32,960 bases of DNA from assembly GCA_020631045.1 (NCBI GenBank), contig JAHDHZ010000019.1, forward strand, positions 9,525 through 42,484, read 5' to 3'. The translations under genes and the position numbers were made by a program. The stretch is from Flavobacteriales bacterium (lineage in GTDB: Bacteria > Bacteroidota > Bacteroidia > Flavobacteriales_G > JALEGO01). This document shows, one piece after another, positions 18,511 through 31,399 of the stretch (the first letter of the stretch is position 1; each line of letters opens with the position of its first letter). Under the pieces are notes generated by a model. It ran no database searches and was not told the DNA's origin. It saw nothing but the letters and a program-made list of their open reading frames with translations.

Positions 18511-20592
18511 TTACTCATCATAAAGAATCTCAGCCCCATTCTTATAAATGCCTACAACCCTGAATTCAGTACGTCTATTTTTCGCTCTACCCGAAGGGTT
18601 GTCTGTTCCATCAGAATAAGTATTGGGTGCAATAGGTCTACGCTCACCATATCCTTTAGCCCTTAGTCTTTTTGGTTCAATGCCCTTTCGAGTCAACAAA
18701 CGCACAATGGTTTCAGCTCTTTTTTGTGAAAGATTATCGTTGTATTTATCTGTCCCTAAATTATCTGTGTGTGAAGCTAATTCAATAATCAATTCAGGGT
18801 TTTCTTCTAATACTTTAAAAATAGTTGAATCTACACGTTTAGTAGATTCTCCAGTCAATTGATCAGAATCAAAAGGATAGTAAATGTCTTTAATCACAAT
18901 AGGATCTAAAGTCAACTCCAACACTCCTATATGCTCCTGTAACAAATGATCGCTTGCCTTTGAAGGATCTACTTTGTGATGTTTGTTGAAAAATCCATCT
19001 CTGTTTATCACTATCTTGTAATGATTGTTAGGGTCTAAATCAAATTCAAACCCTCCTTTTTCATCTGTAATTGTACTGGCAATTTTCACAGGGTTTTCAT
19101 TTCCTTTAAACTGATATAGATCAATTGATTGACCTACTAAAACATATTTCTCTTCCACTAACTTTCTTTGTTTTTCAAGCTCATCTTCCATTTCTAAAAT
19201 TTGATCAATTGCTGTAGTATTGTATAGTTTAGATGCATATTTTACTTTGCGGTGCTCATACATTTCAATATGATAGATGTCATCACAACAATTCTGATGC
19301 TTGAAATCAATTGATCCATCACGATTCGACACCAAAAATCCTTGAGTAGAATCTGAGGTGCTCTTGGTAAAATACAGATCATCAGCAGAAGAACAAATAG
19401 GGTAACTCAAGTTTTCAGGAAATCCCCACTGATGCTGTTCAAAACTACTTTTAAATACATCAAATCCACCAATACCCTCCCAGCCATTTGAACTAAAATA
19501 TAGTGTGTTGCGTACATTGTCAAAAAAAGGCGTTTGCTCATCTAAATTGGTATTGATTTTAGACCCTAAATTCTCAAGATCTGAATAAAGGTCTTCTTTA
19601 TGATTATAAGTCACCTTCCAAAGATCAAATCCACCCAATCCACCAGAGCGATTAGAAGAGAAAATAATTGCATCAATAGAATCATTGATGCTGTATACTG
19701 AAGGCTGGGTATTTGAACTTAAATCATCATTTACAATTTCTTTCAAAGGTTTGGGATCTGACCAAAGATCATCATCCATTTTAGTAAGATAAATTTTGCA
19801 AGCATATCCCTTTGTACTCTTTTTACATTTAGAAAAATATATGCGCTTTTGATCTTCTGAAATACTAGCATTACCTACATCTTGATCAGGGTCATTCAAA
19901 GGCCATTGAATTGATTTTGATCCTTCCCAATTATTGGCTACTTTCTTTGCTGTATAAAACTGGCGTTTTTTGGCGATGCTATCATGCGACTCATAATATT
20001 GTAGTTGCTGCTCATCAAAAGAAGCGTACAACATCGTTTCATCATCAATAAAAATGGGAGAAAAATCTATGTGAGCATGATTCACTGAATTATCTAGATG
20101 CGTAATAATTGTTGTTTCTTCTGCTTCTGGTTTATTTAAACTCATGGCCATATAACACCCTTGTTTTTCAATTATAGCCCACTGTTTTTCAATTGCAAGT
20201 TTTGGCCGCTCATTTACTAGATTTATAAATTGTTCAAAATATGTGACCGCTTGATCGTACCTGGCAGTCTGCTTTAACATTTGAGCCATTCTAAAAGTTG
20301 CCAAAGGGTACTTTTCAGAAGCTCTTTCACAAACAATAAAATACCACTCTCTTGCTTTGTGATAATCTCTAGAAAGCCTATAATTTTCAGCTAAGCGATA
20401 AGCCGCATCAATGTCAGATGGTTTTAAATTGCAATACTTAAAATAATAGTCAGAAGCTAAGTAGTAGTCTTGCGCATTTTCATAAAACTCAGCTGCTTTT
20501 TTCAGTTCAAAAATTTGAGCTTTAGAAAGCTGAGCAAAAAAGCACACTGGTAAAAATAAAAACAATATGATCAACACCTTACATTCTCTCAC
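18511..20592 (-). CDS. OmpA family protein with TPR, PD40 and peptidoglycan-binding domains (PorE-like)
   Basis: A 693-residue envelope protein with the layout of PorE, the T9SS-linked peptidoglycan anchor of Porphyromonas. Order: signal peptide (about 1-20), TPR repeats (about 25-140, AAEFYENAQDYYLASDYY), PD40/WD40-like beta-propeller (about 150-420, repeated IIFSSNRSGGLGGFDLW and LYFSSNGWEGIGGFDVF), a carboxypeptidase-D-like beta-sandwich (about 485-555) and an OmpA C-terminal domain (about 565-690) with ASHTDNLGTDKYNDNLSQKR and RAKGYGERRPI for binding peptidoglycan. PorE-like and PorP-like proteins are often encoded together. It starts with GTG at 20592, overlapping the PorP-like gene by 14 bases, and ends at a bidirectional terminator. 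Whether it serves the core T9SS or a dedicated paralogous set is not decided. Confidence 0.88.
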   Translation of the reverse strand: MRECKVLIILFLFLPVCFFAQLSKAQIFELKKAAEFYENAQDYYLASDYYFKYCNLKPSDIDAAYRLAENYRLSRDYHKAREWYFIVCERASEKYPLATFRMAQMLKQTARYDQAVTYFEQFINLVNERPKLAIEKQWAIIEKQGCYMAMSLNKPEAEETTIITHLDNSVNHAHIDFSPIFIDDETMLYASFDEQQLQYYESHDSIAKKRQFYTAKKVANNWEGSKSIQWPLNDPDQDVGNASISEDQKRIYFSKCKKSTKGYACKIYLTKMDDDLWSDPKPLKEIVNDDLSSNTQPSVYSINDSIDAIIFSSNRSGGLGGFDLWKVTYNHKEDLYSDLENLGSKINTNLDEQTPFFDNVRNTLYFSSNGWEGIGGFDVFKSSFEQHQWGFPENLSYPICSSADDLYFTKSTSDSTQGFLVSNRDGSIDFKHQNCCDDIYHIEMYEHRKVKYASKLYNTTAIDQILEMEDELEKQRKLVEEKYVLVGQSIDLYQFKGNENPVKIASTITDEKGGFEFDLDPNNHYKIVINRDGFFNKHHKVDPSKASDHLLQEHIGVLELTLDPIVIKDIYYPFDSDQLTGESTKRVDSTIFKVLEENPELIIELASHTDNLGTDKYNDNLSQKRAETIVRLLTRKGIEPKRLRAKGYGERRPIAPNTYSDGTDNPSGRAKNRRTEFRVVGIYKNGAEILYDE

Positions 20593-21625
20593 AAGTCGGG
20601 GTAGTTTTTCGTTCTATTTTGTAAAAGTTGGTATAGATCAAAGAAAGTTCAAAAGCCCCCCGCATTCCTGTGGCTTGCCTCAAAGAAGATAAATTTAAAT
20701 CATAAGCAATACCTAAATCAAAATTCTGAACTCCGAGTCCTGCACGCAAGATTAATGCATCAAAATTTCTAGCAAACCCTGAACGCATAAAAACTCCACC
20801 ATAGAGTTGTCTGAAACTTTCATGATCGAGCTTTTTTCCGAAGTTTACTCCACCGTTCAGCATAGAAGCCCTATTCATGTAATGATATTGAACTAAGGAC
20901 TGAACAAACAATTTTGAGGCAAATTCATGTAAAAATGAAGCATGAGGACTCAACCTTAAATGAGATACAGCATTAGAAGAAATAGTTAAAAATTGTAGTT
21001 CTGGCCTTAATAAATTGACCAACTGAGCACCTAAAACTAGTTTTTGTTGAGTGTTTTTATATACAAATACCAAGCCTGAATTTAAAGTCAATCGGTTTAC
21101 TTGATTGGCCGAAATAGTTTCTAAAGAGGGTAGATTCTCATTGAAAGATCCGCTTGAGATTTCCCACTGATTAGGGAAAGTATAACCAGCATTATCTAGA
21201 TTGTGCATAAACAACACTGGCTGAATGCCCAATGCTAAATTTGATTGATTTGAAAGCTTTACAGAATAAGATACAGGCAGTGAAATTTCTGTTCTTCTCA
21301 AAGCCAAATCACCTGTTCGATCATAATTAATTAACAAACCTGCCGAGACGAAGTTTTGATCAAAAGAAACACGTTTATCAAACGACAAAGCGTTCGTTAC
21401 ATAAGGTTTTGACAAAGCTGCCCATTGCGAACGATATGTATTGGCAATGCGAAAAGACCCTTCAGCATTGCCCGTTAAAGCAGCATTTAAATTCAAGGGT
21501 GACAAATCAACTTGAGAAAGGTGTATTGTTTGTGCACAAAACCGACCAAACACAAGCATAGAAACAAAAAACAAGACGCTCTTTGCAAGATGGCTTGAGC
21601 AGTAATATTTTTTATTTGAAAACAA
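20579..21625 (-). CDS. PorP/SprF family type IX secretion membrane protein
   Basis: A 348-residue outer-membrane beta-barrel of the PorP/SprF family. The mature part opens with IHLSQVDLSPLNLNAALTGN, and the next block includes FRIANTYRSQWAALSKPYVT, both family signatures (loss of water-of-assembly residues is not seen). PorP/SprF proteins anchor the T9SS substrates that carry type B C-terminal domains to the cell surface; SprF is specific to the adhesin SprB. The first in-frame start is TTG at 21625, giving a signal peptide with hydrophobic run SVLFFVSMLVFG. Divergent 42 bases away lies a 1400-residue PKD protein with such a C-terminus, the obvious candidate substrate, and the PorE-like gene overlaps its 3' end by 14 bases. 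Confidence 0.88.
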   Translation of the reverse strand: MFSNKKYYCSSHLAKSVLFFVSMLVFGRFCAQTIHLSQVDLSPLNLNAALTGNAEGSFRIANTYRSQWAALSKPYVTNALSFDKRVSFDQNFVSAGLLINYDRTGDLALRRTEISLPVSYSVKLSNQSNLALGIQPVLFMHNLDNAGYTFPNQWEISSGSFNENLPSLETISANQVNRLTLNSGLVFVYKNTQQKLVLGAQLVNLLRPELQFLTISSNAVSHLRLSPHASFLHEFASKLFVQSLVQYHYMNRASMLNGGVNFGKKLDHESFRQLYGGVFMRSGFARNFDALILRAGLGVQNFDLGIAYDLNLSSLRQATGMRGAFELSLIYTNFYKIERKTTPTCERM

Positions 21626-21667
21626 ATTGTATTTTTAAACTTTAAATTACAAGTTAAAAAAATTTTG

Positions 21668-24600
21668 ATGCACCAGCCTAAGGGCCCTATAGTTTTTAAA
21701 ACACTGATTTTATCAACCCTGCTTTTTCTAAGCTATACAAATGAGCTATCTGGTCAAGTGACTGCCTTGTTTTCATATGAAGACACCATCGGATGTGGCT
21801 CTATCAATACGCGTTTCATCATCGACAGAAGTGCTTCTACAGATAGTATTGTCTCGACCAAATGGTTTTTAGGTTTTGGTGCTGAAATCACAGATCAAGA
21901 TACAGTTGAACGTATTTTTGCCACAACAGGAAGCTACAACATTAGACTAATTGTTTTCAGCAATACAGATTCAGACACTTTAGAACTTGAAAATCTTATT
22001 GATGTTTTTGAAGCTCCTACAGCTAATTTCAGTTTAACAGACTCTGTTTTTTGCACACTGCCCGCTCAAGTAAACTTCAACAATTCTAGCTCTGTTGATG
22101 CCTCTAGCTTTGAGTGGAGTTTTAGCAACAACACCTCCTCATCGCTTGAGAATCCTCAAGCGATTTTTACTAGCAATGGGTCGTACTCTATTGGTTTAAA
22201 AGTTGAAAACGATGCTGGATGTAAAGACAGTATTTTCAAACCTGCTAAAATTTTAGTCGATGCTATTGAATCAAATGCTACAACTGACAAAGCAAATTAC
22301 TGCTCCTCAGAAATTGTATCGTTCAATCAAAGTGCTTCTAATGTTGATGTGTTTGATTGGTCTTTTTCTTGTTGTGGTAACTTCAATACCTCTAGCGGTG
22401 CCTTTACCCTACCTGATAATGTTTTTTCTACACAATCTTATACCTTCATAGCTTCAAACGCAAATGGCTGTACTGACACAGTAAGCGCATCTTTTTTTGT
22501 TGATACCATTAAAGCAAACCTAACAACTAATCAAACGCTCTTTTGTGAAGCTCCTTATACGCTTAGCTTTTCTGATGCTTCTAATGCATTGAGCAATGTT
22601 TCATCTTGGCAATGGGTACTCAACGGAGCAGACACCTCTCACCTAGAAAACCCTGCTTTTTTTGTTACCAACCAAGCCAACAATTCCATTGAGCTTACTG
22701 TAAATTCTAGCTTGGGTTGTAGTGATCAAATTACTCAATCAAATGTTGCGCGCTGGTTTAATTTAAAGCCTATTATTGACACTACTTCTTCTACAATCGG
22801 ATGCCCCGGCCAAACCATTGGGTTACAAATAAACAACACAGCTAACAGCTATGCTGATTCATTAGCTAACTCTAATTTTATAGAATGGTATGTCAATGGT
22901 AATTCAGTTGCTCAAAACACATTCTCTTTCCCTTTTTTACCTCCAGCTTTAAATCCTTTAAATAACCCAGGAGAACACACAGTTGTCTTAGAATCAAATT
23001 TCTCAAACGGTTGCACTCGATTTGACAGCATAAGGTACCTCATTGGCGATACTCCTGTAGCAAACTTCTCGATCAACAAGCTTGACGATTGTGCTTCTTC
23101 GCCAGTCGACTTTATTGACCAAAGCACTTCATCGACTCCCATCACAGAATGGTTTTGGAATTTTGGAGACAGTTCAACAAGCGCCCTACAAAATCCTACA
23201 CATTTATACACAGACACAGGCAGCATGAATGTGTCTTTAAAAGTGAGCAGCAATGGTTGTTCTGATTCTGTTTCAGTCAATGATCTTTTATACATCAGCG
23301 GACCTATTGTTGAACTTACCATTGACTCGGTTGATTGTGACAATCCACTTCAGCTTAACGCCTCCGTAAATATAAAAGGAGGTGACAGATGGGCATGGTA
23401 TTACGGAGACGATAATTTACCCAAAGATTCAAATGCTACAAGTATTTCTTATGACTATCTAAGTTCTGCAAGCTATACCGTTAGAGTTGAGGCCGTCAAT
23501 GACTCTTCACTTTGCATCAACGAGAGTAGTCAAAATGTTGTGATTTATGAAGATTCTCTTGGTTTGTACCTGCCTATTGATACTACGTGTGTTCAAACGC
23601 CATTTAACTACAGTGCTTTAGGGCAAAATCCAGCCGTTCAATACGACTGGTATTTGGGTAATGGAGATTCTATTATTGATGTGGGTGGATTTCAGTATCG
23701 CTATGACTCTGCTGGTTCATATGTTGCTACCTTGATTGCAGAATATCCCAATTCATGTAGAGATACAGTCACGCATCCTATTTATGTTGGAGCTTTTCAA
23801 GCCTTGTTCACACAAGATAACCTACAAGGATGTCTTCCTTTAAATGTGCAATTTACCGATCAATCAATCAGTGAATTTAACATCACTTCTTATGAGTGGA
23901 ATTTTGCAAATGGAGCTACAGACAGCATTCAAAATCCTAACTTTACGTTCACCTCTGACTCCATCCAACCTTCTGTAAGCTTAACCATTGAGAATGACCA
24001 AGGTTGCAGGGCTACTTTTACCAATCAGGTAACCAACTTATTTTTACCAAAAGCCAATTTTGAAATCTCATCCAACGCACTTTGCCTGGGAAATACTATA
24101 GATTTTTCAAATCTTTCAACCAATAATTCTTTTGGAGCAACCACCTACACTTTTGATTTCGGAGATGGATCTGACACCGCTACCCCAGCATCAGCTCAAC
24201 ACACTTATTCTGACACAGGACAATATGATGTCACACTCAGCATGCTTGATTTAACTTATGGATGCGCAGACACTTTAACTATTGAAAATGCTGTATACAT
24301 TCAAGACAAACCCACTGCCGGATTTACGGTCAACAACCAATTGATTGGATGTGCTTCAGAGCCCGCAATCTTTACCAACCTTAGCCTAAGCGACTTTCAA
24401 TTTGGTTCTTTTGAGTGGAATTTTGGAGACGCCATCGGCACAGATACTATTTCTAATCCACAATACAACTACACATATCCAGGAACATACTCCGTCTCTT
24501 TAATTGCCACTACTACTTCAGGATGCAGCGACACAATTGAATCTATTAATTTAATTGAAGTTCAAGGCCCTTATGTTGAATTGAGTTTATCTAAAGATTC

Positions 24601-25870
24601 AATTTGCAAAGGTGAGCAGGTTACTTTTTCAATTGACTCTAGCAATGCTACTATTGCCTATGAAATTGATTTCGGAGACGGAGATATTTCAGAGCTCACA
24701 AATATATCTACACCAACAGTTGAACATTCATATAGCCAAGGCACTGGATTCTACCCTATTGTTCTAAATATGTATTCTGATACTAGCACTGCCTCTGAGT
24801 GCAAAGTACCTATCCTTGACAGTTTATACGTTTATGAGGTTAAAGCAGATTTCAGCATTGATGATTCTACGTTATGTTCAAACAATACAGTAGTTAGTTT
24901 TTTAAACACTTCTAACCTTGCTGATTCACTGGTTTGGACTATTCAAGGCACCACCAACACGTTTACTAATGTTTCTAATTTCAACTATGATTTTTCTAGT
25001 GCTAATAACACTTATCAAATTAGCTTAGCTGTCTTCAACAATGCGTTCGGCTGCAGCGATACTGCTGTTAAAACCATTGAAGTTTCTGATCAAATTCTAG
25101 ATGCTCTTTTACCAGGTGACACATTTGTTTGTCAAGGTGACAGCATACAACTTTTCACCCAAGCAGATGCCCTAGATTCTGTCTCATGGCAAAGCTTAAC
25201 AGGCGCATTTATTGAAGATCCTAACGGTTTTTCAACCTTACTGTTTGATCAAAACACCTCTTTAAATACTGTGTTCTTACAAGATACCAATGGATGCACC
25301 CTAACAGACACCTTTGAGGTTTTTGCCATTCAACCTTTTACTCTTAATGCTTTAGACACCACCCAATCTTATACCATTTTACAAAACGATTCAGCTTTGT
25401 TTTCCATTGATTTGACTCCTCAAGAAAATCACTACACCTACAATTTTAATCCATCTACCGACTTGAATTGTATGAGTTGCCCTGCACCATATATTTATGG
25501 CCAAAACGATCAAAGCATTGAACTAATCATCTCTGATAGCTTAACGTGCAACACCCAAACTATTTTAATTGACATTACTGTTTTAAGAACTCCAAGCATT
25601 GCTTTACCAAGCTCTTTTACGCCTAACGGAGATTTAAACAACGATGTCATTTATGTCGGCTCGAACGGAATTACAGAATTACTTGAATTCAATATTTACA
25701 ACAGATGGGGCGAAAGAGTATATGAAAATCCTGGCGATCTTTCTCTGGGGTGGAACGGCTTTTACAAAGGCAAACTACAGCCCATCGATGCTTATGGAGT
25801 CACTGTGAAGGCCAAAGCTTTCACCGGAGAAATACTCGAATACAAAGGATACATCAACATCATTCAATAA
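21668..25870 (+). CDS. Giant PKD-repeat surface protein with CHU_C (gliding motility-associated) T9SS C-terminal domain
   Basis: A 1400-residue secreted protein. A signal peptide (about 1-31, hydrophobic TLILSTLLFLSY) is followed by roughly a dozen PKD-like immunoglobulin repeats, each with a W/F-x-FGDG or similar core: EWFWNFGDSSTSALQNPTHL (near residue 495), TYTFDFGDGSDTATPASAQH, FEWNFGDAIGTDT and YEIDFGDGDISEL. Cysteines recur as pairs in many repeats. The C-terminal 90 residues (PSSFTPNGDLNNDVIYV, then FNIYNRWGERVYENPGDLSL and GWNGFYKG) match the CHU_C type B sorting domain that routes proteins through the type IX secretion system. I chose ATG 21668 over the TTG one codon before. Its stop lies directly against the miaE start (zero spacing). 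Likely a surface adhesin or gliding-type fibre protein; the ligand is unknown. Confidence 0.88.
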   Translation: MHQPKGPIVFKTLILSTLLFLSYTNELSGQVTALFSYEDTIGCGSINTRFIIDRSASTDSIVSTKWFLGFGAEITDQDTVERIFATTGSYNIRLIVFSNTDSDTLELENLIDVFEAPTANFSLTDSVFCTLPAQVNFNNSSSVDASSFEWSFSNNTSSSLENPQAIFTSNGSYSIGLKVENDAGCKDSIFKPAKILVDAIESNATTDKANYCSSEIVSFNQSASNVDVFDWSFSCCGNFNTSSGAFTLPDNVFSTQSYTFIASNANGCTDTVSASFFVDTIKANLTTNQTLFCEAPYTLSFSDASNALSNVSSWQWVLNGADTSHLENPAFFVTNQANNSIELTVNSSLGCSDQITQSNVARWFNLKPIIDTTSSTIGCPGQTIGLQINNTANSYADSLANSNFIEWYVNGNSVAQNTFSFPFLPPALNPLNNPGEHTVVLESNFSNGCTRFDSIRYLIGDTPVANFSINKLDDCASSPVDFIDQSTSSTPITEWFWNFGDSSTSALQNPTHLYTDTGSMNVSLKVSSNGCSDSVSVNDLLYISGPIVELTIDSVDCDNPLQLNASVNIKGGDRWAWYYGDDNLPKDSNATSISYDYLSSASYTVRVEAVNDSSLCINESSQNVVIYEDSLGLYLPIDTTCVQTPFNYSALGQNPAVQYDWYLGNGDSIIDVGGFQYRYDSAGSYVATLIAEYPNSCRDTVTHPIYVGAFQALFTQDNLQGCLPLNVQFTDQSISEFNITSYEWNFANGATDSIQNPNFTFTSDSIQPSVSLTIENDQGCRATFTNQVTNLFLPKANFEISSNALCLGNTIDFSNLSTNNSFGATTYTFDFGDGSDTATPASAQHTYSDTGQYDVTLSMLDLTYGCADTLTIENAVYIQDKPTAGFTVNNQLIGCASEPAIFTNLSLSDFQFGSFEWNFGDAIGTDTISNPQYNYTYPGTYSVSLIATTTSGCSDTIESINLIEVQGPYVELSLSKDSICKGEQVTFSIDSSNATIAYEIDFGDGDISELTNISTPTVEHSYSQGTGFYPIVLNMYSDTSTASECKVPILDSLYVYEVKADFSIDDSTLCSNNTVVSFLNTSNLADSLVWTIQGTTNTFTNVSNFNYDFSSANNTYQISLAVFNNAFGCSDTAVKTIEVSDQILDALLPGDTFVCQGDSIQLFTQADALDSVSWQSLTGAFIEDPNGFSTLLFDQNTSLNTVFLQDTNGCTLTDTFEVFAIQPFTLNALDTTQSYTILQNDSALFSIDLTPQENHYTYNFNPSTDLNCMSCPAPYIYGQNDQSIELIISDSLTCNTQTILIDITVLRTPSIALPSSFTPNGDLNNDVIYVGSNGITELLEFNIYNRWGERVYENPGDLSLGWNGFYKGKLQPIDAYGVTVKAKAFTGEILEYKGYINIIQ

Positions 25871-26458
25871 ATGCTTAAGTTAAAACTTGCCACAGACCCC
25901 AGGTGGGTCAACATTGCTGAGAAAAACATCGAAGAAATTCTCACCGACCATGCTTTTTGTGAGCAAAAAGCTGCTTCATCTGCCATTTCAATTGTGGTAC
26001 ATTACCCTTCAGAAAGTGATTTGGTTACCAAACTACTTGATGTTGCTCAAGAAGAATTAGAACACTTTCAAATGGTGCATGACATTATTGTAAAACGTGG
26101 ATTTGTCTTAGGCAAAGAGCGCAAAGACCCCTACATTCATGATTTACGCAAATTTTTTGCTGGTGGAGGCTCTAAAGAGCAATCTCTGATCAACAAATTA
26201 TTACTCAGCGCAATGATTGAAGCCAGAAGTTGCGAGCGTTTCAAAGTACTCTCTGAGCACATCAAAGATGAAGAACTCTCAAAATTCTACCATGAACTTA
26301 TGATCAGTGAAGCAGGGCATTACACTCTGTTTTTAGGCTTTGCAAGAAAGTACGGAGAGCAATACAAAATTGATGTTGATGCCCAATGGCAAAAATTCTT
26401 AGATTACGAGGCCACTGTTATTCAATCTTACGGTACCAAAGAGCACATTCACGGATAA
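25871..26458 (+). CDS. miaE: tRNA 2-methylthio-N6-isopentenyladenosine-37 hydroxylase (MiaE-like)
   Basis: A 195-residue non-haem diiron hydroxylase of the ferritin-like MiaE family, which hydroxylates ms2i6A at position 37 of tRNAs reading UNN codons. Candidate iron ligands fit the diiron pattern: E31 (FCEQKAAS), E62 and H65 (QEELEHF), E117 (IEARSCERF) and E147 with H150 (SEAGHY). The first ATG abuts the stop of the PKD gene and the gene ends three bases before rodA, so the three look co-transcribed. I see no miaA or miaB nearby; presence of MiaB elsewhere in the genome would be needed for the substrate to exist. Confidence 0.9.
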   Translation: MLKLKLATDPRWVNIAEKNIEEILTDHAFCEQKAASSAISIVVHYPSESDLVTKLLDVAQEELEHFQMVHDIIVKRGFVLGKERKDPYIHDLRKFFAGGGSKEQSLINKLLLSAMIEARSCERFKVLSEHIKDEELSKFYHELMISEAGHYTLFLGFARKYGEQYKIDVDAQWQKFLDYEATVIQSYGTKEHIHG

Positions 26459-26461
26459 CTG

Positions 26462-27757
26462 ATGAGACGCACACGTTCGGTCTTTGGGCAAATTGATCTA
26501 AGTATTCTGCTACTTTATTTCATTTTAGTGGGCCTAGGGCTGATGAACATCTACGCCGCTACTTTTACTGAAACTGTCGATTTTACCAGCTATGAAAAAC
26601 AGTTGATGTGGATTGGTCTTTCTTCTGTTTTAGGCTTAAGCATATTGATTGTCGATGCCAAGTTTTTTGAAGGATTTGCTTACCCTATCTACGGGTTTTT
26701 CATGTTGTTACTTACCTGCGTACTTATTTTTGGTTCTGTACATAAAGGGGCCAGGTCTTGGTTTAATTTAGGCCCCTTCGCTTTACAACCCACAGAATTC
26801 GCAAAATTTGCCACAGCACTTGCTCTTTCTAAATTTTTCTCAGAATACCATCAAAAGAAATTCACCTCAACAGCCTATTTCAAAGCTTTTTCAATCATTT
26901 TTTTACCTATCGTTCTCATTGCCCTGCAGCCTGACTTGGGCTCTTGCGTGGTATTTTTAGCATTTTATTTTGCCCTTTACCGCATTGGCTTCCCTTCTTG
27001 GATTATGATTTTAGGGTTTTTCACCTTGTTCTTATTTTTAGTTACCATTTATCTTCAGCAATACTCATGGCCTTTGACAAGTGCATTGATTATTGATGGA
27101 TCTCATGTTTTAATGCTCTTGCTTTGCCTGATTGCCTTTTTGGCTTATCGCTTTTCAAAGCGTCAAAAATTAAAAATCCCGAAAACCTTATTTTTTTTGT
27201 TTTTGATTCCTTCATTAATTTTCACAATGACAGTGAATTACACCTTTAACAACCTTCTTGAAAATCGACATCGAGACCGTATTCATGAGCTGCTGGGCAT
27301 CTCTCACGACCCATTAGGCGTAGGATACAACGTTCATCAATCAAAAGTTGCTATTGGTTCGGGTGAATTTTTGGGCAAAGGATTTTTACAAGGCACTCAA
27401 ACTAAATACAATTTTGTACCTGAACAGCGCACCGATTTCATTTTCTGTACCATTGGTGAAGAGTGGGGATTTATTGGCAGTTTTGTTGTCATTGCACTAT
27501 TTGTCACTTTACTCACCTTGATTATTCAATCTGCTGAACGACAAAAATCAGTCTTTAGTAAGTTCTACGGTTATTCTGTTGCAAGTATCTTATTCTTTCA
27601 CTTTACCATCAACGTAGGCATGACTGTCGGATTGGTTCCTGTTATTGGCATTCCTCTGCCTTTTTTTAGCTATGGTGGATCGTCTCTTTGGGCCTTTACA
27701 ATTCTGCTATTTATCTATTTAAAATTAGACAGCGAACAGAAATTTATCCTTGGCTAG
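26462..27757 (+). CDS. rodA: Rod shape-determining SEDS glycosyltransferase RodA
   Basis: A 431-residue SEDS-family peptidoglycan polymerase with about ten membrane helices. Family landmarks are clear: [19 protein letters not shown] in the first half, and in the second half [38 protein letters not shown] with the essential aspartate D325, and the late [15 protein letters not shown]. RodA makes glycan strands for the elongasome using lipid II, paired with PBP2 (mrdA at the left edge of the window). Here rodA is separated from mreD and mrdA by about 26 kb and sits beside miaE. A second copy near mrdA outside the window cannot be excluded. Its stop shares the palindrome CTAG with the stop of thymidine kinase on the other strand. 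Confidence 0.92.
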
Positions 27758-28368
27758 TCTGCCTGCCTAGAAGCTTCTATATTCTGAAAAGCTTTTTCTT
27801 GATTGGCTCTTGTGTAGCAAGCTCTACAAAGAGGTTCGTATTCGTTTTTCTCACCAACCAAGACTTGAGTTTTTTCTTGAATCTTTCTGTGTGAATAAAG
27901 CGCTAAATCTCCACAAGACAAACAAACTGCCTTTACTTTGGTCACTTGATCTGCAATGGCCATTAATTTAGGCATAGGACCAAAAGGCACTCCTTTAAAA
28001 TCCATATCAAGCCCTGCCACAATCACGCGCGTACCCATACTTGCCAGTTGATTACATACCTCTACCAAATGATCATCAAAAAACTGTGCTTCATCAATAC
28101 CTACTACATCGATCTCTTCAGATAAGACCAAGATGTTTGCAGAACTGATCACTGGTGTTGAAGCAATCGAATTGGCATCATGAGAAACCACATCAGAATC
28201 GTGGTAGCGGTTGTCTGTTTTAGGCTTAAAAATCTCTACTTTTTGTCTTGCAATTTTTGATCTTCGCAATCTTCTGAGCAATTCTTCAGTCTTACCTGAA
28301 AACATAGATCCACAAATAACCTCGATACTTCCTCTTTTCTTTGTGGCGAATGACTGCTCAATAAACAT
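27754..28368 (-). CDS. tdk: Thymidine kinase (type II)
   Basis: A 204-residue salvage enzyme that phosphorylates thymidine. The P-loop GSMFSGKT (residues 20-27), the VGIDEAQFF segment with its catalytic glutamate (near 93-101) and a zinc-binding pair of CxxC motifs (CLSCGD and PLCRACY) mark a type II thymidine kinase. I chose the ATG at 28368 because the preceding in-frame codons (back to 28419) are not conserved in the family and would run into the promoter area of the divergent gene. It converges on rodA with the stop codons overlapping (CTAG at 27754-27757), and is divergent from the unknown protein to the right. Confidence 0.93.
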
Positions 28369-28378
28369 AGATGTGATT

Positions 28379-28408
28379 TTTGTTAAATATAAAAGAATCC
28401 TATCTTTA
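28379..28408 (+). promoter_or_regulatory. Candidate promoter for the unknown protein/dsbD operon
   Basis: TTTG at 28379-28382 and TATCTTTA at 28401-28408, 18 bases apart, resemble the Bacteroidota promoter with one mismatch in the last position of the second box. The ATG at 28428 lies about 20 bases downstream. The spacing is right but the match is imperfect. Confidence 0.32.
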
Positions 28409-28427
28409 AAGAAACACACTTCAATAA

Positions 28428-29210
28428 ATGAGCATATTTTCTAAGCACATAAATGAGTTAAATAATTGTTTTTCAGAGATCAACAAGTTATCAACAAACA
28501 ATAATTTTGAACAAAAAGAAGCTTTTTTTAAACTTAAATCAAAACTAAACGAAGCTCAAAAAACCCTCTTAGATCTGCAATTATCAATCGACGAAGAACT
28601 TTTAACATTTTTTAATGACAACAAGGATAGTCAAGCTAGTGTTGTAAATTTAGCACCACCTCAGATTAGTGAACAGGCCGAAAATTCAAGTGCTTCCGGC
28701 GCATTAAGTGAAGACACCTTCACTGAAACTACAGATGCTATTGCAGAACCAAAAAAAGAAAGCGCTCCTGCAAAACCAATAATAGAAAGTACTGAGCAAA
28801 CCTTTTCTAAAATCACAAAAGATATTTCTAAGACAACTCCTATAATTCAAGAAGAGCCTGTTCAAATAAACGACCCCATCCAACCAACAAATACTTCTGA
28901 ACCTATTCAAGAAAACATCAACGAAAAATTAGCGCAAAGCACTACAAACATTAACCAGCAACTCAGTCAAAACAAAGAGGGGCTAGCACATTTTAATTTT
29001 GATGTAAACGATCGTGTATTTTTTCAAAAAGAATTATTCGATGCCGACCCTTATCAGTTTCATGTTTCTTTTAAAAAGATTCAGAAATGCACCTCTCAAG
29101 ATGAGCTGAAAACCTTATTTGATCAAGAGTTTGCAACTCAATTTGATTGGAGTGAAAAACAAGCAGCTGTCACTAAACTTTTTGATCTATTATCTGAACA
29201 ATTATCATGA
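28428..29210 (+). CDS. Bacteroidota-specific protein of unknown function with C-terminal conserved domain
   Basis: A 260-residue protein without signal peptide or clear membrane helix. Three parts are visible: an N-terminal helical segment (about 1-62), a long Glu/Pro/Thr/Ser/Gln-rich, probably disordered linker (about 63-185), and a compact C-terminal domain (about 190-260) beginning [20 protein letters not shown], continuing with [16 protein letters not shown] and ending in [21 protein letters not shown] recognise this last pattern (NDR..F..ELF, then a 'D/W' helix pair) from uncharacterised Bacteroidota proteins; I know of no assigned function. The start ATG is 59 bases from thymidine kinase, and the stop overlaps the dsbD start by ATGA, so the two are probably translated together. 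Confidence 0.75.
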
Positions 29211-31399
29211 ATAACTTCTTTAAATCTTTCTTACTTGTACTGAGTATACTTTTTTCAAGTATTGGCCACGCTCAGATTTTCACCCCAGTCACCTGGAGTT
29301 TTTCTTCTGAAAAAATTCAAGACAACACCTATGAGCTTCAATTAAAAGCAAGTATTGAAAAAGGCTGGCATTTATATGCGCAAAATATCGAAGAGGGTGG
29401 GCCCATTCCGACGACTTTTACTTTTAAAGAAAATCCAAACACCAAACTTATAGGCAACGTCTTAGAACCAAAAGGGCACACAGAATACGACCCAAACTTT
29501 GACATGCAGCTCACTTGGTTTGAAAACAATGTCATTTTTACTCAAAAAGTAAGTGCATTAAACGATACCAAACTAGAAGGAGAAGTAGAATTCATGGTCT
29601 GCGATGATGAAAAATGCTTGCCTCCTGAATACGTTGAATTTTCTTTTGACTTAAAAGCCCACCCCACAACCCCCGCTCCCAACACCTCAACAACAGAGTC
29701 ACCTGCATCTTCCACTAAAAACCCTTCACCCCCAGCAACCCCCACTACATCCAACCAAAACAACACTACTAACAACACCCCCAACCCAAATCAAGACCCC
29801 CTAAAAACAACCTCTTCTTCGACTCCTACTACATCAGAAAGCAGACATAGCGCTACAGAAGCCCCCTCAACCCTTAAAACTGACACCAAAGCACCCTCCT
29901 CCACCCAAAATACCTTTGAATACAACAAAGTCAGTGTCAACCTAGAGGCCCCTCTAGCCGATTGCGCCATTAAATCTGCCAACGTACAAAAAGCCTCGAT
30001 CTGGGGCATTTTCATCTTAGGATTCTTGGGCGGACTACTTGCTTTATTGACTCCATGTGTGTTTCCAATGATTCCGCTCACGGTGAGTTTTTTCACCAAA
30101 GACTCAAAGGCAAAAGGCTTGAGCAACGCCTTTTTATACGGCTTTTTTATTTTAGCGGTATACTTGTTGTTGAGCATTCCTTTTCACTTGTTAGACAGCA
30201 TTGACCCTAACATTTTAAATACCATTTCGACTAACATTTATTTGAACCTTGCCTTTTTTGTGATTTTTATCTTTTTCTCCTTTTCGTTTTTTGGTTATTA
30301 TGAAATCACTTTACCCTCATGGCTTTCAAACAGGGCTGACAGTGCATCTTCTTCAGGTGGCGTAATTGGCATCTTTTTTATGGCCATTACTTTAGCATTA
30401 GTTTCTTTTTCATGTACAGGGCCTATTTTAGGCTCGCTCTTAGCAGGCTCTTTAAGTTCTAATGGAGGTGCCTGGCAATTAACCTCTGGCATGGCAGGAT
30501 TTGGCCTTGCTCTAGCCCTACCCTTTGCTTTGTTTGCGGCATTTCCATCATGGCTCAACAACTTGCCTAAATCGGGTGGATGGCTCTCTGATGTCAAAGT
30601 CTTATTGGGTTTTATTGAAGTGGCTTTGGCTTTCAAGTTTTTGTCAAATGCAGACTTGGTTAAGCATTGGAAAATACTGCCCTACGAACTCTTTTTAGCC
30701 ATTTGGATTTTAGTATGCATTGGTGTGTTGCTTTATTTGTTTAATATCTTAAAATTTCCGCATTCTTCACCCTTTAAAAAGTGGGGATTCGCCCGAGTTT
30801 TACTGGTTATATTTTTTGGATGTTCTACCCTGTATTTATTCAGCGGATACAAATACGAAGACTCAACCAAAACCTTCAGCTCTCTCCCTCTTTTAAGTGG
30901 ATTAGCCCCTCCTGCTGGATACAGTTATATACACCCCAACCACTGCCCTTTAAACTTGAATTGCTTTCACGATTACAATGAAGGCTTGGCTTATGCCAAA
31001 AAAGTAGACAAACCCATCATGCTTGATTTTACAGGATGGGCATGTGTGAATTGCAGAAAAATGGAAGAAAACGTTTGGAAAGACCCAGCCGTTTTTAAAC
31101 TTATCAATGAAGAGTATGTATTGATCTCTTTATACGTTGATGATAGAGAAAAATTACCACAAGAGCTTCAGCATACTTACACAACCAAACAAGGCAAGAA
31201 AAAGAAAATTAGAACCGTAGGTGATCAATGGGCTACTTTTCAAACCGAGACCTTTAACAACAACTCTCAGCCTTGGTATCCTCTTTTAAGCCCAGATGAG
31301 CAGCTCTTAATTTCTCCGGTTGGAAACACTCCTGAAATTGAAAAATTTAAAGCATATTTGCAGTGTGGACTTACGGCCACCAAGAAAGAAAATAACTAA
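29207..31399 (+). CDS. dsbD: Thiol:disulfide interchange protein DsbD (cytochrome c biogenesis transmembrane thiol reductase)
   Basis: A 730-residue inner-membrane protein that moves electrons from cytoplasmic thioredoxin to periplasmic thiol proteins. It has a signal peptide, an N-terminal DsbD-alpha-like domain (about 25-148, cysteines C132 and C137 in [10 protein letters not shown]), a polytopic membrane domain (about 260-560, redox cysteines C284 in LTPCVFPM and C403 in FSCTGP) and a C-terminal thioredoxin domain with ACVNC (C613 and C616). Between the first two parts lies an unusual Pro/Thr/Ser/Asn-rich linker of about 100 residues (150-248), longer than the short linker of E. coli DsbD. 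Overlaps the preceding gene by ATGA; efp follows two bases after its stop. Candidate recipient of its electrons in this window is the TlpA-like lipoprotein. Confidence 0.92.

Follow-up and report, generated by a model that had tools for sequence, protein, structure and literature searches.

The locus described here raises the question of how a large surface protein exported by the type IX secretion system (T9SS) is held on the cell, what makes a type B T9SS protein mobile or static being an open question in T9SS biology. It lies in a stretch of 32,960 nucleotides (hereafter the window) from a Flavobacteriales bacterium (assembly GCA_020631045.1, contig JAHDHZ010000019.1, positions 9,525 to 42,484), where a gene for a 1,401-residue protein of tandem PKD domains adjoins genes for a PorP/SprF-type barrel and a PorE-like protein with an OmpA domain. 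By analogy with published systems, we consider it likely that the three genes form a dedicated cell-surface anchoring triad which keeps the PKD rod static on the wall. The three-part set is of a known kind; what appears to be new, in that we did not find it in the open-access literature searched, is a class-wide module combining a PKD rod of near-fixed length with concerted cysteines on carrier and anchor. An earlier note, made from the sequence alone, had described the three genes as a self-contained T9SS cluster. All three open reading frames were found again at the coordinates it gave, and domain scores and structural models bore out the identity of the cluster.

The PKD protein scored 239 bits for PKD_4 and exceeded the cut-offs of both type B signal profiles (CHU_C, 32.2 bits against 27; TIGR04131, 37.1 bits against 35) at residues ~1313–1399, identifying it as a type B T9SS substrate. 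The barrel protein belongs to the PorP/SprF family by curated cut-offs (PF11751, 103.4 bits against 22.3; TIGR03519, 112.2 bits against 90.55), and its AlphaFold model is a 14-strand barrel (mean predicted local distance difference test score, pLDDT, 90.5) with a tail disordered from mature residue 303. A sequence search returned no relative of this protein in the PDB; by structure comparison, the model resembles the T9SS translocon chains 8gl6_F and 6h3i_F (TM ~0.6), chain F being presumably PorV. For the PorE-like protein (OmpA domain, 65.5 bits), the secondary structure of the AlphaFold model (mean pLDDT > 90) gave TPR, propeller, CRD-like and OmpA parts in that order, the last matching the crystal structure of the PorE C-terminus (6top, 36% identity). 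Residues D610 and R625, which we take to be the classic meso-DAP/peptidoglycan contacts of OmpA domains, were invariant in the OmpA-domain alignment, although the rows of this alignment and of the PorP alignment (A2 and A3) had been pre-filtered for the CC pair and tail cysteine described below.

We assessed whether these proteins are components of the core T9SS, a point that the earlier note had left undecided for the OmpA protein. The PorE-like protein reached 288 bits for NCBIfam T9SS_PorE (NF052230, cut-off 600) and 287 bits for CHU_0125_OmpA (cut-off 620), and no protein in the window genome reached 600 bits for T9SS_PorE. In the PorE-like tree, the window copy grouped with those of G001 (same genus) and G002 (same family), then with module members of other families, apart from three operon copies of its own genome. 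Its position among the module copies of other genomes makes the OmpA protein a paralogue; both the NCBIfam score and the tree rejected it as the core PorE. The window PorP, among the two most divergent of its genome by Pfam score, followed the same pattern (G001 and G002, then module members of other families), standing away from both the GldK-adjacent core PorP and the three operon copies. Both proteins are thus paralogues outside the core T9SS. The earlier note had named a grouping with core copies, with no co-evolution with the PKD protein, as evidence against its own proposal; neither protein groups in that way, and their tie to the PKD protein is one of shared neighbourhood.

The genome itself (G000; 2.34 Mb, 98.6% complete, 86 contigs) was also surveyed, the genome-wide count being a check that the earlier note had proposed. 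Profile searches found 9 PorP/SprF genes and ~15 proteins carrying a PorE-type propeller region. Matches to the type B signal numbered 37 at E up to 0.01, of which 31 exceeded the cut-off. The three operon copies are classic colinear arrangements of type B, PorP and PorE-like genes on contigs 13, 28 and 36, and since nine PorP genes and these operons exist, the window locus is one of several carrier/anchor sets. SprA (2364 bits) is encoded outside the window, and GldK (576 bits) has its own PorP upstream and GldL, GldM and GldN downstream. The description as a dedicated set is supported, but "self-contained" goes too far, as export still depends on the shared SprA/GldKLMN machine, whose genes lie elsewhere. 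GldM (L113:4602-5510) is short (302 aa, 127 bits, under the 180-bit cut-off), possibly owing to truncation, divergence or an assembly fault.

The three-gene neighbourhood is conserved well beyond the window. Searching 100 relatives with PorP and reading ~30 neighbourhoods, we found it in more than 20 loci: in the same genus (G001, proteins 37–47% identical), the same family (G002) and, further out, in the same order and in additional families of the class. The contig of G003 (same family) is too short to hold the PKD gene; G003 and JALEGO010000122 (Flavobacteriales bacterium) were taken as one record because their match coordinates are identical. The nearest named relatives are Flavobacteriales metagenome-assembled genomes. 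When named genomes were scanned using the OmpA alignment and a CCDD pattern, which enriches CC by design, at least 571 relatives were returned. The 80 best belong to Flavobacteriales, Bacteroidales, Chitinophagales, Cytophagales and Sphingobacteriales, with an adjacent PorP in nearly all, a PKD gene in many and the set in most. A scan of named-genome contigs with the PorP protein alone as query gave zero matches. Where the PKD gene was complete, it was divergent in 39 loci, upstream on the same strand in 10 and downstream in 4. Across an even sample of the class, 38 of 198 genomes carried a PorE-like orthologue (E up to 1e-70), nearly always as a single copy. The set is widespread but patchy across Bacteroidia, and because the arrangement recurs in many genera and families it is far beyond chance. 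That the three orthologous genes stay together throughout the class upholds the proposal of a dedicated carrier, anchor and substrate set, with the clustering and co-inheritance of three cognate genes expected of a static PorE/PorP/type B triad. As a separate observation, in five loci (L144, L160, L167, L171 and L177) the CC-type PorE-like gene is immediately followed by another of its kind.

This co-inheritance bears on whether the three genes might be neighbours without a dedicated link, with another PorP paralogue carrying the PKD protein and the window porP and PorE-like genes serving other substrates. Type B signals exceed carriers about 4 to 1 in the window genome (~37 to 9), so several substrates must share carriers; one orphan F. 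johnsoniae shuttle, Fjoh_1677, serves three unlinked substrates (PMC12618676), and separate divergent transcription permits independent use. However, the PKD orthologue stays by the PorP/PorE-like pair in many families even where strand order has been rearranged, and we regard a mere neighbourhood without a dedicated link as very improbable.

Among known systems, the best model appears to be static anchoring of the kind proposed for PorE-PorP-PG1035 and for the F. johnsoniae PorE/SprF/type B operons. In P. gingivalis, PorP binds both its type B protein and PorE in a PorE-PorP-PG1035 complex for which surface anchoring was proposed (PMC9143113); the window set shares the type B substrate, PorP barrel and TPR-propeller-CRD-OmpA anchor. 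It differs in being a set of dedicated paralogues in one locus with no evident lipobox, whereas in P. gingivalis PorP and the lipoprotein PorE are each the only, core T9SS copy. In F. johnsoniae, type B proteins need their cognate shuttles to be secreted, and Fjoh_3952 was proposed to be statically anchored by a PorE homologue (PMC12618676). Operons of the Fjoh_3950-3952 type match the window in gene content and are likewise proposed to display their substrate statically, anchored to the wall by way of a cognate shuttle, while in the window the substrate gene is divergent and encodes a near-fixed-length rod of 14–15 PKD domains; the pairing of tail cysteine and CC at the window locus may be a further difference from Fjoh_3950/3951. 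The earlier note had instead favoured SprB-SprF, which also combines a PorP/SprF carrier bearing a conserved periplasmic C-tail cysteine with a large repetitive type B substrate. It is the weaker analogy because SprF has no adjacent PorE-like partner, and the P. gingivalis complex and the F. johnsoniae operons fit better (PMC9143113, PMC12618676); in the window the PorE-like gene overlaps porP by 14 bases, and a single carrier cysteine with a CC pair on a wall anchor stands in place of a Cys-X-Cys directed to GldK.

On the model of these relatives, the PKD rod would be exported through the shared T9SS translocon and its type B signal captured by its own PorP-like barrel, a step shown for relatives, which would hold the rod on the surface. 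The TPR/propeller part of the PorE-like protein may hold the barrel from below while the OmpA domain grips peptidoglycan, so that the rod would be fixed and not moved along gliding tracks. A disulfide from C345 of the barrel to C435/C436 of the anchor might strengthen the link.

The rod itself is unusually uniform. Its length is near constant (median 1,470 aa, interquartile range 1,464–1,498, n = 53), with 15 domains typical, and 30 cysteine positions in the window protein are conserved in all or nearly all orthologous sequences (20–22 of 22). As cysteines are mostly spaced 56–60 residues apart inside a domain and 25–29 between domains, we infer one disulfide per PKD domain. In a domain-by-domain comparison of orthologues, 108 of 223 cases matched at the equivalent position, where a simple estimate assuming 14 equal positions gives ~16. 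A single domain, the second, is missing from the window copy; the other 21 rows have it, and the flanking domains are intact. SprB-type adhesins are likewise large, multi-domain and equipped with a type B signal; the PKD rod, by contrast, keeps its number and order of domains throughout the class. Judged from its sequences, the locus defines a class-wide rod family of nearly fixed length, unlike freely expanding repeat adhesins. The PKD protein is at most a putative adhesin, as a conserved structural rod would fit the near-fixed length and domain order at least as well. C44 in domain 1 is invariant, its usual partner cysteine is missing in most orthologues, and it may serve in a tip-to-tip or other contact. 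Two loci (L095 and L096) have two large PKD proteins in tandem next to one PorP/PorE-like pair.

Cysteines on carrier and anchor were matched throughout. C345 is the only cysteine of the window PorP past the predicted signal peptide and lies four residues from the end (...TPTCERM), where the background rate predicts ~0.013 cysteines in a 12-residue tail. In the PorE-like protein, C435-C436 is an invariant vicinal pair before the last propeller strand, in a loop ~7 residues longer by alignment (a loop-length pattern search was uninformative). Of 130 adjacent PorP/PorE-like pairs, taken without selection on the PorP cysteine and with CC scored as any "CC" at residues 300–650 and not as an aligned column, 105 had both features, 25 had neither and none was mixed. 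Cultured relatives whose PorP/PorE-like pair bears these cysteines include Edaphocola flava and Taibaiella (L203-L205). We tentatively suggest from this match that C345 could be disulfide-bonded to C435/C436, fixing surface rods covalently to the wall across the class; we found no report of a PorP-PorE disulfide in the open-access literature. SprF-GldK and PorG-GldK bonds were reported in 2025, and permanent inter-protein periplasmic disulfides were described as almost unknown (PMC12635249). If true, the C345-CC bond would be the mirror image of the SprF-GldK bond, and cysteine placement would separate static from moving anchors. The locus yields a simple prediction, C345 with C435/C436.

It is also quite conceivable, and compatible with the triad, that the cysteines are markers of co-inherited subfamilies, with CC forming a local vicinal disulfide or metal site and C345 a free thiol. 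Both traits change only two to three times on the trees, always jointly (L209, L280/L283 and L265), which is too few for significance (sign-test median p 0.5 and 1); at least six concordant independent pairs would be required. Several features do not sit easily with such markers. Of the 105 PorPs of CC pairs, 82 have no cysteine beyond residue 40 other than the C345-type one, so it has no internal partner there. Another pair of PorE-like cysteines, C256 and C265, is mostly conserved and jointly absent in L100 and L122, where CC stays; the two are therefore probably each other's partners, and CC probably not theirs. Locus L209, nested inside the CC clade, lacks both the PorP tail cysteine and CC, possibly by co-loss. 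Retention of the cysteine merely through gene overlap was rejected, as it is kept where the genes do not overlap (L120 and L108).

The tail cysteine raises a further possibility, namely that C345 bonds GldK as SprF does, the rod being dragged on the gliding track as a mobile adhesin with the PorE-like protein as regulator or brake. SprF bonds C343 of GldK through its C-tail Cys-X-Cys, attaching SprB to the moving track (PMC12635249), and the window genome encodes a GldK with a cysteine in a GLYCMAGNV motif as well as a GldJ-like protein. A tail cysteine also occurs in 23 PorPs without a PorE-like neighbour, and so is not specific to PorE pairs. However, the window PorP has a single cysteine where SprF carries the Cys-X-Cys twin, the operons of mobile F. 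johnsoniae substrates contain no PorE-like gene (PMC12618676), and GldK binding leaves the absolute match of tail cysteine and CC in 130 pairs unexplained. A mobile adhesin therefore seems unlikely.

Several points nevertheless weigh against a dedicated, static triad. The excess of type B signals over PorPs means that one carrier may serve several substrates, and the C-tail cysteine, by its likeness to that of the moving SprF, could point to track linkage. A few module loci had their PKD gene downstream or yielded none, short contigs explaining some of these cases. Unlike P. gingivalis PorE, the PorE-like protein has no clear lipobox: by sequence inspection, the LPVC of the window sequence differs from a standard lipobox, and orthologues mostly show SPase I-like ...AQ ends. 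Static anchoring by a dedicated triad is still the reading that we favour.

Features of the locus, in window coordinates
Feature	Position	Strand	Details
PorE-like peptidoglycan-binding anchor	18511..20592	-	693 aa; signal peptide, TPR, beta-propeller, CRD-like and OmpA domains
Overlap of porP end and GTG start of PorE-like gene (14 bases)	20579..20592	-	
PorP/SprF-type outer-membrane beta-barrel carrier	20579..21625	-	348 aa; 14 strands; disordered C-terminal tail with C345
Divergent intergenic region (42 bases)	21626..21667		between PorP TTG (21625) and PKD ATG (21668)
Type B T9SS substrate	21665..25870	+	1,401 aa; 14 tandem disulfide-type PKD/Ig-like domains and C-terminal CHU_C/TIGR04131 signal
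MiaE-family gene	25871..26458	+	directly 3' of PKD stop, zero gap

On the minus strand, porP (21625 to 20579) precedes the PorE-like gene (20592 to 18511), and their overlap, on which the earlier note is silent and which was seen again in 36 of 97 module pairs, probably allows translational coupling. The distance between the divergent starts given by the earlier note is valid with the start codons listed in the table.

Further PorP genes with a cysteine near the end were seen elsewhere. In L116 (G000 contig 58, 1-13000), PorU lies together with a GldJ-like gene and a PorP-like gene ending ISCPSF on one contig; SCPSF-type tails also occur in L247, L249, L251 and L271, and a related tail in L245 and L272, possibly marking a second class of cysteine-tailed PorP. 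Downstream of the PKD gene (25871-31399), miaE is followed by rodA, with a DsbD-like gene nearby (29207-31399). G001 and G002 keep the miaE-rodA order 3' of their PKD genes, and in G064 MiaE stands beside the PKD gene; miaE is probably a synteny marker kept in related genomes, outside the mechanism.

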